DNA of 37,320 bases from Puniceibacterium sp. (GTDB lineage: Bacteria; Pseudomonadota; Alphaproteobacteria; Rhodobacterales; Rhodobacteraceae): positions 1 through 37,320 of the forward strand of contig JAGXGV010000095.1 of NCBI GenBank assembly GCA_024636635.1, read 5' to 3'. Below the pieces are notes generated by a model, which saw only the letters and a list, made by a program, of their open reading frames with translations, was not told where the DNA came from and did no database searches. The position numbers were made by a program, and so were the translations under genes. Positions 22,907 to 27,892 of the stretch are shown here, piece by piece; position 1 is the stretch's first letter, and each line of letters starts with the position of its first letter.

Positions 22907-25897
22907 TCAGGGCAGTTGCGACTGCGCCCCGGTGACCTTCAGCTTCCAGCCTTCGATCAGGGTGCCTTCGGTCTTCAGTCGGCTGGCAAAGGCATAAAGG
23001 CGCCGGGTGGCGGGCCCGCCGGGCGCCGTTTCGAACCGCTGCTTGAGGTAATAGGGCGGAATCGACTGGGAAAAGAGCGTGGCCGTAACCTGCACCGTCG
23101 CCGGATCGGTGCCTTCGGGCAGGGCGATGCGGTATTCCAGCTGGTCCTCGCCGGGGGCAAAGTCGGGATCGGTGGCGGCGTCGCCTTCGGGCAGGGTCGC
23201 CTTCATGAAGGTGGCGGTGACCTCGCTGTCGCCGAACTTGGCCCTGAAGGCGTCGGTGCCGGGGGTCAACGCGCCATGCGGCAGCAGGCGGTTGTCCTTG
23301 GGATGTTCGATCCGGTGGATGAAGCTGGTGGTGAATTCGCCTTTGGCGTTCTTCGTCAGCTCTTCGTAGATCTGCACCTGATCCTGGCTGTCGATGACGC
23401 GGTGATGCGGCTGGAACAGCGCCTCTGTCGCGCCTTCGGGCACCACGTCCAGAAACTCGGTCGGCAAGGGCAGGCCATCAGCGCCCAGAATCACCCCGGC
23501 CCCATTGGAGCAGCCCGAACACCAGAGCACGGCACCATCCTGCCCGGTCGCCCGCACTTCGAGAAAGGCGCGGCGGAACCCGACACCCGAGGGCAGCCTG
23601 TGCCCGGTCTTGTTGCCGACAGCCACCTGCGCCACCAGACCGCCGTCACCCCGGGCCAGATCCACCGACACTGTCGCGGTTTCGTCACGGGCCTGAAGCG
23701 CCATCGAATCGAGCGCCAGTTGCGCACCGTTGTCGGCATAGGTCATGGGGTCCGCGATGCTGAGTCCGGTTTCGTCGGTGAACTGGCGCATCATCTCGAC
23801 CAGAAAGGCGTTCAGCCCGACAAAGTTGTGCCGCTTGTAGCCTTCGCGGAAAGGCACGTTCACCTCTTGCGAGGGCAGCAGGTTTTCGACCGCGGGCATC
23901 ATGTCGTCCTGGATCGTGGCGATCTGTGTGGTGATCGCGTCCACCTTTACGCTGCCATCGACGCTGACGAAATTGCCCTTCATGTGGCAGTCCTGACAGG
24001 ACTTCGCGGTGCCGGGATCGGCGTAGGCGCTGTTGACCCATTCGATATAGGTCGCCTGTTCCACCGAATGCTGGAACTGCGTCAGAGGTTCGGGAAAGGT
24101 CACGCCGTAAAGGTCGTTCAGCAGGTTGGCGCCGTTGACCGACGCCGCGTTGAACACCGCCTGGTCGGCATCGGTATAGCCGGGCAGGGGTTCGTCCGGG
24201 TTGGCGTCCACGTTGGGCAGGTTGATGGTGTGGCAGGCGCCGCACAATTCGCTGTCCTTGATATAGGCGTCGTGCATCGGCGTGATGCCCAGCGCGTTCT
24301 GCATCGGCTTTTCGCGCACGTCCTGGAACGGCCCGTTCAGCCGGTCGGAATCGTTCAGGCGGAACACCCCCGTGGTGCCGTTCATCAGGTAGGTGTCAAG
24401 CTTGTTGTAGTCGGGCTGGTCCGCCATCCGCTGCGGCGGGGCAATATGGTGGCAGACGGTGCAGGAAATCCCCTCGCGCGCGAGGTTGCCGTACTGGTGA
24501 TAGGGATAGGTGCCGTCCGTCTCCTGTGCGGTCTTTTCCGCGGTGGTCAGCGGGTCGTGCAGCAGCGTGTAGGCCACTTTGAAATTGTCGGGATCAAGGC
24601 CCGCCGCAGGATCGGCATGGGCGTCGATGGCAAGCTGGCGCTGGCCCATCGCGCCGTGGCAGGACAGACAGGTGGTGCCGACATTCGCCGCCAGATCGCC
24701 GCTTCCCGCCGCCTCGAGAAGGGCGAATTCGCTTTCAAGCTGCGCAAAGAAGATCGGGTCGCGCCCGGCCAGCCCCATGGGCGACCAGCGCCATTCGCCA
24801 TATTCCGAGATGTTGTAGCCGTCGCCATAGGCCGGCCCGGTCTGAAGGAACATCGTGGTGCCCGAGGGCGGCCCGCCAAGGCCGCCGTGACAGCCGATGC
24901 AATTGTCCGAACTCAGGAAATGCTGCGGGTCGCCGGGGCGCGCGGGCACATGGTCCAGCCATTCGCTCGGCATCTTCTGGACCTGTCCCAGCGGCACGTC
25001 GATGCCGCCGGTGGGGGGAAACATCTCGGTAAAGACCGGATTCACCGCGTCTGGCGAATCGGGTGCGGCGGCGTTCAGGCTGGCCAGAATGTCGCGGTTG
25101 TGAAACAGGTTGTCGATCAGCTCACTTTCCGAGGCGCCCATCGCCGGGCGCTGCCATTCCGGCAGGTTGAACGGCCCGGGCGGAAATCCGTCCAGTTTGC
25201 GCCAGCTTTCATCGACGCTGAAGATCAGCGGCTCGCCCGGGTAACCCTGCACGTTGGACAGCGCCGAAAAGATCAGTTCGTTCGCGGACGAGGCGTGGCA
25301 GCGCATGCAGGTGCCTGCCCCTGCCTGTCCCGAAGGCGGGCTGAACGGGGCGTCGAAGCTGTCGATGGCGGCGTCCTGTCCGACCGAGGCAAAGAACCAG
25401 CCGCCGTGGCTAAGCGCGCTGTCCTTGACCATCACGGTCCAGTTCAGGTTGTTGCCCTTTTTCAGGTAGGCCAGCATCTCGGATTCGACCAATGCGGGAT
25501 CGTCCGGGTGCATATAGTCCAGCAGTTCGCGGTATTCGTTGTAGCGCGCGGCGGGGGGCGACGCCATTTCCTTGACCACCACGGCCCCGTCCGGCACCGC
25601 GCCCAGCCGCCCGCCGTCAAGCCAGGTGATCACCTCGGGCGAATAATAGATCCGCACCGCCGGATGCACCCCGTAGGATGTGTCGAGCACGAATGGACCG
25701 GTGTCGCGCCAGCTTTTGTCAGGGGTCCAGCCAAGGCCGACAAAGTCGCGGTTGGCGATAAAGGGATACAGCGCGCTTTCGTAATCGAGCAGGGGCAGTT
25801 CCGAAGGTCTAGGAAGGTCGGCAGGCTGTCCCTGTGCGGCGGCAAACTGTGCAAATCCCAAAAACGATGCACCAACACAGGCCATGATCCGCTTCAT
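22907..25897 (-). CDS. Secreted multiheme cytochrome c (six CXXCH) with P460-like N-terminal region
   Basis: From MKRIMACVGASFLGFAQFAAAQG signal peptide. CXXCH motifs CMRCH, CIGCH, CLSCH, CTVCH, CGACH, CQDCH. N-terminal PDGAVVVKEM...WTVMVKDSALSHGGWFFAS...CMRCHASSANELIFS resembles cytochrome P460-family proteins. Confidence 0.85.
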   Translation of the reverse strand: MKRIMACVGASFLGFAQFAAAQGQPADLPRPSELPLLDYESALYPFIANRDFVGLGWTPDKSWRDTGPFVLDTSYGVHPAVRIYYSPEVITWLDGGRLGAVPDGAVVVKEMASPPAARYNEYRELLDYMHPDDPALVESEMLAYLKKGNNLNWTVMVKDSALSHGGWFFASVGQDAAIDSFDAPFSPPSGQAGAGTCMRCHASSANELIFSALSNVQGYPGEPLIFSVDESWRKLDGFPPGPFNLPEWQRPAMGASESELIDNLFHNRDILASLNAAAPDSPDAVNPVFTEMFPPTGGIDVPLGQVQKMPSEWLDHVPARPGDPQHFLSSDNCIGCHGGLGGPPSGTTMFLQTGPAYGDGYNISEYGEWRWSPMGLAGRDPIFFAQLESEFALLEAAGSGDLAANVGTTCLSCHGAMGQRQLAIDAHADPAAGLDPDNFKVAYTLLHDPLTTAEKTAQETDGTYPYHQYGNLAREGISCTVCHHIAPPQRMADQPDYNKLDTYLMNGTTGVFRLNDSDRLNGPFQDVREKPMQNALGITPMHDAYIKDSELCGACHTINLPNVDANPDEPLPGYTDADQAVFNAASVNGANLLNDLYGVTFPEPLTQFQHSVEQATYIEWVNSAYADPGTAKSCQDCHMKGNFVSVDGSVKVDAITTQIATIQDDMMPAVENLLPSQEVNVPFREGYKRHNFVGLNAFLVEMMRQFTDETGLSIADPMTYADNGAQLALDSMALQARDETATVSVDLARGDGGLVAQVAVGNKTGHRLPSGVGFRRAFLEVRATGQDGAVLWCSGCSNGAGVILGADGLPLPTEFLDVVPEGATEALFQPHHRVIDSQDQVQIYEELTKNAKGEFTTSFIHRIEHPKDNRLLPHGALTPGTDAFRAKFGDSEVTATFMKATLPEGDAATDPDFAPGEDQLEYRIALPEGTDPATVQVTATLFSQSIPPYYLKQRFETAPGGPATRRLYAFASRLKTEGTLIEGWKLKVTGAQSQLP

Positions 25898-26015: not shown

Positions 26016-27254
26016 TCAGCCCTGTTTCAGAAAGGCTTGCCCGTCCACGAGAAAGCGTTCCGACAACGGCAGGCAGGCCGCACCCAGCGACCGGGCGGAC
26101 GGACCCACCGTGCCGGGCCGCACTTCGGGCGGGGTGATCCCGGCCAGGTTGATCCGGGCCAGCGCCGAGGTGGTCGCCTCGACCAGGCGCTGACGCAGCG
26201 AAGCCGGAATCCAGCCGTCGATCAACACCGTTTCAAAGTCGATGAGCGAGGCGGAGGCGGCGATGGCATGGGCGATTCCCTTTGCCGCGCCGTCCAGCCA
26301 GACCGCAAGCGGCGCCGGGTCCACCGACCACAATTCGGGATCGCGCCATAGCTCCTGCGTCGGATGCCCCCGAGCCTCAAGCAGCTTTTCCAGCCCGGAA
26401 AGCGAGGCGACGTCGATCAGTTGCAGCGGTCCCGCCCCGCCGGGCACGGGCATCGACCCCAGCGCCCCGGCATTGCCCGACCGCCCGTTGTAAAGCGCGC
26501 CGTTCAACACCAGTCCGCCACCGATGAAATAGCCGACGAAGAAATACAGGAAATCCCTGGGCGAGTCCTGCGCGCCAAAGACAAGTTCGGCCCCGCAGGC
26601 GCAGGAGGCATCGTTCTGGAGATACACGGGATAAGGCACCTGTGCGGCCAGTTCGGTTTTGATCTCGCGGTCCTGCCAGGACGCCATGTCGACGGGATCG
26701 ACCCCGATCAGCCGCGCCCAGTTCCACATCTCGAACGGCATGGCGACTCCCAGCCCCGCGATCCGCGACCGTTGCGCCGCTGTCAGCCCCGCAGTCACCG
26801 TCGTGATCGATTCGACAGCAAAGCGCAGCGTGTCGTCGGGCCTTGGGTAGGCGTGGGTGCGCTGCAAGCGCGCCTTTACCTGCCCGACAAAATCGGTCAG
26901 CACCAGTTCCTCGTTCCGGCGCCCGATCTTGAGTCCCAGAAAAAACGCGCCCTCGGGATTCAGGTGCATCGGCACCGATGGTTGACCGACCTTGCCGCGC
27001 ACCGGGTCACCCTTGGCCAGCAACCCGTCCTCTTCCAATGCACGCATGATGACGGACACGGTCTGTGCCGAAAGCCCGGACCTGCGGGCGATTTCGGCCT
27101 TTGCCATCGGGCCAAGCTGCCGGATGAGCGACAGCACAAGCCGTTCGTTGTGCGCGCGCATCCCGGACTGGTTCGAGCCGCGCATCACGCCGGTGTCAGC
27201 CCGGGCGCGGTCGGGGCCGTGTGTCGGACTGTCGCCGTTAAGAAGTCGGTCCAT
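26016..27254 (-). CDS. ROK family transcriptional regulator
   Basis: N-terminal HTH (LIRQLGPMAKAEIARRSGLSAQTVSVIMRALEEDGLL) plus ROK ATP/sugar-binding domain (GYFIGGGLVLNGALYNGRSGNAGALGSMPV). Start could also be TTG at 27269. Confidence 0.93.
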   Translation of the reverse strand: MDRLLNGDSPTHGPDRARADTGVMRGSNQSGMRAHNERLVLSLIRQLGPMAKAEIARRSGLSAQTVSVIMRALEEDGLLAKGDPVRGKVGQPSVPMHLNPEGAFFLGLKIGRRNEELVLTDFVGQVKARLQRTHAYPRPDDTLRFAVESITTVTAGLTAAQRSRIAGLGVAMPFEMWNWARLIGVDPVDMASWQDREIKTELAAQVPYPVYLQNDASCACGAELVFGAQDSPRDFLYFFVGYFIGGGLVLNGALYNGRSGNAGALGSMPVPGGAGPLQLIDVASLSGLEKLLEARGHPTQELWRDPELWSVDPAPLAVWLDGAAKGIAHAIAASASLIDFETVLIDGWIPASLRQRLVEATTSALARINLAGITPPEVRPGTVGPSARSLGAACLPLSERFLVDGQAFLKQG

Positions 27255-27265
27255 CGCGCCTCGAT

Positions 27266-27706
27266 TCAACAGGCGCCGGGGGTGTCGATGACCCCCTTGC
27301 GCAGGATGACATTCGCGTACAGTGCCGGTTCGCTGGTGGCAACGATCGTGTGGGCCGCGCGGATCCGGGGATAAAGGTCCGGCCCCGAAAGCGGCTGGAT
27401 AACGATCCCCGGAGCAAGCCGGGCGCTGGCGGCGTCGATCCGGTCGTGAAACGGGCCGCGCTGGGCCGGGTCGTTGTGCAGGGCGGCGCGAAAGATCGCG
27501 GCCGGCGGGGTGCGGTCCAGCGGCATGAGCTGAAGGATCGCCTCGAACAGCGGCAGGATGCCATGGCCATCGGCGCGGATCAGGCGGCGGGCATGTTCCT
27601 GTGCGGGATAGTTTCCGTCCACCAGCGCAATTTCGTCCCCGTGGCCCATCGAGCGCAGGGTGAACAGAAGCTCTGGCCCCAGGATCGCGGGGATGCCGAT
27701 CAGCAT
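27266..27706 (-). CDS. RbsD/FucU family sugar mutarotase
   Basis: From MLIGIPAILGPELLFTLRSMGHGDEIALVDGNYPAQEHARRLIRADG, the RbsD/FucU signature; C-terminal VATSEPALYANVILRKGVI. Confidence 0.9.
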   Translation of the reverse strand: MLIGIPAILGPELLFTLRSMGHGDEIALVDGNYPAQEHARRLIRADGHGILPLFEAILQLMPLDRTPPAAIFRAALHNDPAQRGPFHDRIDAASARLAPGIVIQPLSGPDLYPRIRAAHTIVATSEPALYANVILRKGVIDTPGAC

Positions 27707-27850
27707 GGCCCGGGCCGCGCGCGCGCCGACGGGGCAGGGGGACATGAGGCCGTCAGGAAATCCGAACGATGGCGCATCTGGGTCTCCTCCTTTTTTGCGG
27801 GCTGCCGCGTGTCGCGTTGTCCGTGACAAAATACTGTCGTGCCGCCGACG

Positions 27851-27892
27851 GCCTGTCAATAATAAATAAGAGTGATTTATTTATTGACAGGC
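27851..27892. promoter_or_regulatory. 42-bp hyphenated palindrome in the rbsD/frcB divergent region, candidate ROK operator
   Basis: GCCTGTCAATAA (27851-27862) and TTATTGACAGGC (27881-27892) are perfect 12-bp inverted arms; an overlapping inner palindrome AATAAATAA-gagtgat-TTATTTATT lies at 27861-27885. Confidence 0.7.

Follow-up and report, generated by a model that had tools for sequence, protein, structure and literature searches.

A P460-fold heme domain joined to a pentaheme cytochrome module in a predicted secreted protein of Puniceibacterium sp.

Known cytochromes P460 are small, stand-alone proteobacterial proteins, found mostly in nitrifiers and methanotrophs, and their electron acceptor is external. 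Here, we describe a gene of Puniceibacterium sp. (assembly GCA_024636635.1, contig JAGXGV010000095.1; the whole stretch of 37,320 nucleotides that was analysed is referred to as the window) whose 996-residue product, as judged from sequence and structure models, carries a P460/c'-beta-fold domain with one heme c, followed by a relay of the pentaheme cytochrome (PHC) kind and a C-terminal beta domain. This P460-PHC fusion combines two known kinds of heme module and is not a new kind of system. It is apparently uncharacterised, as neither a characterised homologue nor a description of a P460-multiheme fusion was found in the open-access papers searched.

The cytochromes P460 of Methylococcus capsulatus (6hiu/9hrk) and Nitrosomonas (2je3, 6amg) resemble the fusion in their fold (by model), in a CXXCH motif placed after the last strand, in the conserved position of the cross-linking lysine, and in a GW/GNW strand and a VKD motif that can be aligned. 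They are, however, stand-alone proteins of about 140-170 residues, mainly dimeric, whereas the fusion has five more hemes, a Thr in place of the distal carboxylate and, as judged from alignment, a His in place of the Phe/Arg cap. In McP460, Lys78 is the cross-linking lysine and Asp102 the proton-accepting carboxylate, and in NeP460 the loss of the distal carboxylate abolishes hydroxylamine-oxidising activity (PMC11928373). NsP460 of Nitrosomonas sp. AL212, the 'halfway house', is cross-linked but has no carboxylate and does not oxidise hydroxylamine, an inactivity explained by the missing carboxylate (PMC11928373). The known c'-beta proteins have Phe, Met, Leu, Val, Ile or Glu at the lysine position, and a Lys introduced there leads to a cross-link; in all solved members of the P460/c'-beta superfamily, the cap residue is located above the iron (PMC11928373).

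On the multiheme side, the PHC family comprises ExtKL, Gsu2801 and proteins of cable bacteria; its members have an immunoglobulin-like domain, are similar in structure to Thermochromatium tepidum cytochrome c552 (5ze8) and archaeal cytochrome nanowires, have relatives tied to electron transfer and nanowires, and have been proposed to contain pentacoordinate, possibly catalytic hemes (PMC11976967). T. tepidum c552 and this family share with the fusion five CXXCH motifs, the closest fold and a C-terminal beta domain with a common His, but they are about 400-600 residues long and have no P460 domain. In cable bacteria, PHC modules are fused to truncated haemoglobins and have been proposed to act as terminal oxidases (PMC11976967 and its sources). 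One of these proteins, lPHCtX, is, like the fusion, a single secreted chain whose PHC module carries a ligand-binding heme domain at one end; according to the text of PMC11976967 this domain is an alpha-helical globin, whereas the fusion has a beta P460 fold, and by analogy the fusion would follow the lPHCtX plan with a P460 domain replacing the globin. Hydroxylamine oxidoreductase (HAO) would be similar in principle, as its P460-type heme is coupled to hemes for electron transfer, but it has an unrelated fold, eight hemes and a Tyr rather than a Lys cross-link, and a Pfam scan of the fusion protein gave no HAO or c554 profile match.

The gene lies on the minus strand, with an ATG start at 25897 and a stop codon ending at 22907; an alternative TTG start is possible 14 codons upstream of this ATG. 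The first-pass annotation, made from the sequence of the window, had described a protein of ~996 residues with a signal peptide and six CXXCH motifs, and both the open reading frame and the motifs (residues 197, 333, 410, 479, 552 and 634) are as it stated, including the exact position of the first one. The N-terminus, MKRIMACVGASFLGFAQFAAAQG, is a probable Sec signal peptide, as read from the sequence. The features of the gene are given below, with the evidence for each; low confidence refers to the predicted local distance difference test (pLDDT) of the full-length model.

22907..25897, minus strand: whole gene, encoding a 996-residue, predicted secreted hexaheme P460-pentaheme fusion (open reading frame, six CXXCH motifs, full-length homologues)
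25832..25897, minus strand: probable Sec signal peptide, residues 1-22 (read from sequence; lowest-confidence part of the model)
25262..25792, minus strand: P460/c'-beta-fold domain, about residues 36-212 (PF16694 at 82-206, McP460 profile match, domain-model matches)
25664..25666, minus strand: His78, invariant, aligned with the distal capping residue, Phe41 of NeP460 (alignments)
25652..25654, minus strand: Arg82 (Arg/Lys, rarely Val), aligned with Arg44 of NeP460 (alignments)
25571..25573, minus strand: Lys109, invariant, aligned with the cross-linking Lys78 of McP460 and Lys70 of NeP460 (alignments)
25436..25438, minus strand: Thr154, replacing the distal carboxylate, Asp102 of McP460 and Glu96 of NeP460 (alignments)
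25295..25309, minus strand: heme 1 motif CMRCH (P460 heme), residues 197-201
25097..25273, minus strand: poorly ordered linker, residues 209-267 (pLDDT < 50), with near-invariant His266 (25 of 26 proteins)
23693..24955, minus strand: pentaheme (PHC-type) module, residues 315-735 (5ze8 as best structural match; weak matches to the ExtKL model NF040886 in 22 of 24)
24887..24901, minus strand: heme 2 motif CIGCH
24656..24670, minus strand: heme 3 motif CLSCH
24449..24463, minus strand: heme 4 motif CTVCH
24230..24244, minus strand: heme 5 motif CGACH
23984..23998, minus strand: heme 6 motif CQDCH
22910..23692, minus strand: C-terminal beta domain, residues 736-996, with invariant His766, a candidate distal heme ligand (5ze8 sequence match, predicted strands, conservation)

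Because all six CXXCH motifs are aligned and invariant in full-length homologues (35-84% identity) from several phyla, with one exception, they are not due to chance. The exception is L006, a Rhodobacteraceae metagenome-assembled genome, in which the fourth motif reads CAVRH: one heme-attachment Cys is lost, at the site matching C482 of the window protein, by mutation or assembly error. CcmF, which serves heme c attachment, is present in the host genome.

The assignment of the N-terminal part to the P460/c'-beta fold superfamily is firm by sequence profiles and by model. The P460-like domain claimed by the first-pass annotation has a significant Pfam match: Cytochrome_P460 (PF16694) covers residues 82-206 with 29.6 bits (E 1e-6; curated cut-off 27), and the remaining Pfam matches in the protein are short multiheme ones below threshold. 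PF16694 was also matched by 25 of the 26 aligned homologous N-terminal domains on their own (best E 7e-11). In a PDB search, the profile of these 26 domains found McP460 as its best match (E 0.0008-0.001), in an alignment that spans Lys78, Asp102 and the CXXCH motif and places residues 197-201 opposite CMGCH of McP460; the heme 1 motif thus sits towards the C-terminus of the domain, as expected for a member of the superfamily. The domain model (pLDDT 83.9; predicted template modelling score, pTM, 0.83) is P460-like. Its best structural match was the c'-beta protein 7ead (E 2e-4, probability 1.00), with 6e0x, 6amg, 6hiu, 9hrk and 2je2 as further neighbours, and other folds were retrieved at low probability only; target template modelling (TM) scores of 0.4-0.6 are at the level of distant relatives. 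The full-length model (pLDDT 80.4, pTM 0.83), like the domain model, carries no hemes.

The distal pocket is where the domain departs from the catalytic P460s. Lys109 is paired with Lys78 and Thr154 with Asp102 in the McP460 profile alignment, and the same pairing was obtained in a MAFFT alignment with NeP460 and the Nitrosomonas AL212 protein, which also placed His78 on the capping Phe and Arg82 on Arg44. In this alignment, the NeP460 letters were taken from 2je2 and those of AL212 from the A131E mutant entry 6e0x, which has Glu where the natural protein has Ala. Among the 26 aligned proteins, His78, Lys109, Glu110, Trp57, Asp60, Arg64, Trp167 and the heme 1 CXXCH are invariant, position 82 is Arg (22 proteins) or Lys (4), and position 154 is Thr in all but one, which has Val. 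Lys109 and Glu110 are thus fully invariant, whereas columns across the domain are on average 40% identical. Twenty further matching open reading frames, which represent about 17 distinct genes and partly overlap the first set, kept Lys109, Glu110 and His78 without exception, and had Thr, Val or Ala at position 154, never Asp or Glu. The distal Glu/Asp expected of a hydroxylamine oxidase is therefore replaced in all homologues examined.

In these respects the pocket looks like that of the 'halfway-house' P460: NsP460 and the fusion both have a Lys at the cross-linking position and no distal carboxylate (Ala131 versus Thr154), although NsP460 has a hydrophobic pocket capped by Phe, whereas the fusion has a predicted His cap, Arg82 and a fused architecture. 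Canonical hydroxylamine oxidation is not favoured, and we rank it low because NsP460, which has the lysine without the carboxylate, is cross-linked yet inactive towards hydroxylamine. His78 stands opposite Phe41 in the alignment, and the adjoining loop 68-77 has pLDDT < 50 in the full, heme-free model.

For the remaining five motifs, the first-pass annotation had suggested an octaheme or c554-type protein. This candidate was rejected, as there was no PF13447 or PF13435 match, the module has five hemes and its nearest fold is 5ze8. Instead, sequence and model both indicate a PHC-type five-heme relay with a beta domain. A Foldseek search with the full model gave 5ze8 as the top match (E 3.8e-8, target TM 0.62), followed by 7ead, with the P460s ranked lower. 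The profile of the C-terminal two thirds of the protein also found 5ze8 (E 1.5e-7), most strongly in the beta domain around His766. The NCBIfam ExtKL model NF040886 gave weak matches (best E 3e-11); the window protein scored 37.4 bits and did not reach the equivalog cut-off of 250 bits. The module thus shows the five CXXCH motifs, the c552/ExtKL-like fold and the C-terminal beta (Ig-like) domain of the PHC family. As the only conserved His residues outside CXXCH, in PHC modules with and without P460, are H690, H766 and, nearly, H831, some of the five hemes may have a Met or no distal ligand.

Taken together, we consider it somewhat better than an even prospect that the protein is a secreted, soluble oxidoreductase in which an N-terminal P460-fold heme domain, likely cross-linked and ligand-reactive, is wired to the pentaheme relay. 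The architecture, the homology of both halves, the invariance of the pocket residues and the patchy, multi-phylum distribution (see below) are observed. The P460 heme would have an open distal site and would be tied to Lys109 by a lysine-heme cross-link of the P460 type, which would make it low in potential and reactive towards ligands. The ligand bound at this site would be a small N-oxide or a reactive oxygen species, with NO, hydroxylamine and peroxide as leading candidates, and the five-heme module would conduct electrons between the P460 heme and a partner in the periplasm or outside the cell. Given the Thr at the position of the catalytic carboxylate and the predicted His cap, the chemistry is expected to differ from carboxylate-dependent hydroxylamine oxidation, or to be much slower; NO or peroxide scavenging and redox sensing are examples. 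Of the first-pass proposal of a catalytic or sensing P460-type domain wired to an electron conduit, the single secreted chain, the P460 fold, the lysine and the multiheme module held, whereas standard P460 catalysis was weakened by Thr, Val or Ala at the carboxylate position; a P460 wired to an electron conduit is still the best reading.

Several points weigh against this oxidoreductase reading. The prediction of the cross-link depends on a single aligned residue, and the distal site could be closed by His78 as an axial ligand, which would make heme 1 a plain electron-transfer heme. Heme-to-heme distances, and hence the wiring, are unproven because the models contain no hemes, and the linker 209-267 is effectively unmodelled. 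Catalysis could also take place at one of the five hemes of the PHC module instead of at heme 1. Finally, no neighbouring gene, regulon or phenotype pointing to a substrate was found among the neighbourhoods of the fusion loci that were compared.

Among the alternatives, the one that survives best, although we regard it as unlikely, is a c'-beta-like sensor or sink for NO (or CO) without a cross-link, with catalysis or electron delivery located in the PHC module. The choice of 7ead as best structural neighbour of the domain, the absent distal carboxylate, the pentacoordinate, possibly catalytic hemes proposed for PHCs (PMC11976967) and the conservation across PHC modules of just three His residues outside CXXCH are all consistent with it; the invariant Lys, at a position that is never Lys in the known c'-beta proteins and where an added Lys gives a cross-link (PMC11928373), argues against it. 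Less likely again is a true hydroxylamine oxidase, a one-chain analogue of HAO in which the P460 domain makes NO/N2O, the five hemes remove the electrons and His78, Asp60 or Glu110 acts as proton acceptor. An electron relay fits a dehydrogenase, and the invariant lysine, the conserved Arg82 and the invariant polar residues His78, Asp60 and Glu110 would suit such an enzyme, but the carboxylate that is essential in NeP460 and missing in the inactive NsP460 (PMC11928373) is replaced by Thr, Val or Ala throughout the homologues examined; moreover, searches of 11 carrier genomes gave neither HAO nor ammonia monooxygenase (AMO), but as the control genomes were silent too, absence is not shown. We give little credit to the idea that the P460 domain is a redundant remnant, its likeness reflecting ancestry, in a mere six-heme carrier (e.g., for extracellular electron transfer) with heme 1 ligated by His78/His201: His78 is invariant and near the distal pocket in the alignment, and PHC relatives are tied to electron transfer and nanowires (PMC11976967), but a plain carrier would not need an invariant Lys at the cross-linking position, and the cap residue of the superfamily sits over the iron in all solved members (PMC11928373).

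If the oxidoreductase reading is correct, the fusion may act as an enzyme or sensor that is complete in itself, its reactive heme leading directly into a molecular wire. Since the electron acceptor is covalently attached, oxidation or reduction of a substrate should show directly as redox changes of the five low-spin hemes. The natural exchanges of Glu to Thr and, as aligned, of Phe/Arg to His, with an invariant lysine, offer a ready test of the role of the cross-link when the proton acceptor is missing. The comparison with cable bacteria suggests that PHC modules were fused on at least two occasions to heme domains that bind ligands, to a globin there and to P460 here. Should the fusion handle hydroxylamine or NO, an unannotated nitrogen-oxide step would be added to marine and soil heterotrophs. 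More tentatively, and as a possibility we would place below even, the fusion could represent a widely dispersed new class of P460 enzymes, with a lysine-cross-linked heme and a His/Thr/Arg pocket in one chain with a nanowire-type pentaheme relay, catalysing an N-oxide or peroxide reaction outside the repertoire of the known cytochromes P460; its hosts would be ordinary aerobic heterotrophs and not nitrifiers or methanotrophs.

The same architecture was found in several phyla. One scan of GTDB species genomes gave 57 loci, about 30 of which encode the full protein, with residues 1-996 in register and 33-84% identity to the window protein. Carriers were Rhodobacteraceae (sensu lato), the alphaproteobacterium Tistlia, the gammaproteobacterium Marinibactrum, Acidobacteriota, Bacteroidota (Saprospiraceae), Planctomycetota, Verrucomicrobiota and Myxococcota (Hyalangium); the fusion therefore spans at least six bacterial phyla, patchily, and is rare in each. 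Among sampled whole genomes, it was present in 8 out of 298 from the family of the window (one of these a broken copy) and in 8 out of 297 from the phylum of an acidobacterial carrier, while 2 out of 398 from the phylum of a Bacteroidota carrier matched, one of them in the multiheme part only. A plasmid copy in Paracoccus seriniphilus is annotated as 'hypothetical protein'. PF16694 scans of genomes are a weak means of finding P460, because the scan of the host genome missed even the known domain of the 996-residue protein.

In a tree of the modules (48 rows, root unknown), the P460-bearing proteins fell into one or two groups. The best tree needs two state changes, constraining the P460-bearing proteins together costs 0.36 log-likelihood (p-AU 0.386), and a single origin is not rejected by these sequences. 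Relatives without P460 have 41-169 residues ahead of the first heme, too few for a whole P460 domain and linker, and none of the five scanned had a P460 match. A single contig of Hyalangium versicolor carries both a PHC gene with P460 and a relative without it (L024 and L053), separated by roughly 10 kb. In a member of the family (G214), the gene is split (L065/L067), with the P460 part in a 298-residue open frame and an in-frame TAG in the later part, and looks like a decaying copy.

Directly upstream of the fusion gene, on the same strand, are two genes, and the adjacent copper P-type ATPase gene (copA), already noted in the first-pass annotation, is convergent with it.

27269-27859, minus strand: RbsD/FucU gene
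26019-27269, minus strand: ROK-family regulator gene

The two upstream genes probably form a cluster for sugar utilisation that has no relation to the cytochrome. The ROK neighbour is common only to the window and two Puniceibacterium loci, and copA adjacency was not seen at the other fusion loci compared. Neighbourhoods were shared only among the three closest Puniceibacterium-like loci and, separately, among the Bacteroidota loci, with unrelated neighbours elsewhere; copA and the ROK/RbsD genes are therefore uninformative. A consistent link with denitrifiers was also considered and rejected, as copper nitrite reductase was above cut-off in only 1 of the 11 carrier genomes.

Two further genes were observed at related loci. 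At one fusion locus, the P460-PHC gene is preceded, ~3 kb upstream, by a second, larger multiheme gene of 1126 residues (L031:1575-4952, plus strand), which clusters with the family and has no P460 match. A P460-less PHC of Flavobacteriales (L045:7830-9818, plus strand) ends in a weak match to a Por secretion tail (24.3 bits versus a cut-off of 27), which suggests export of this protein to the outer surface.
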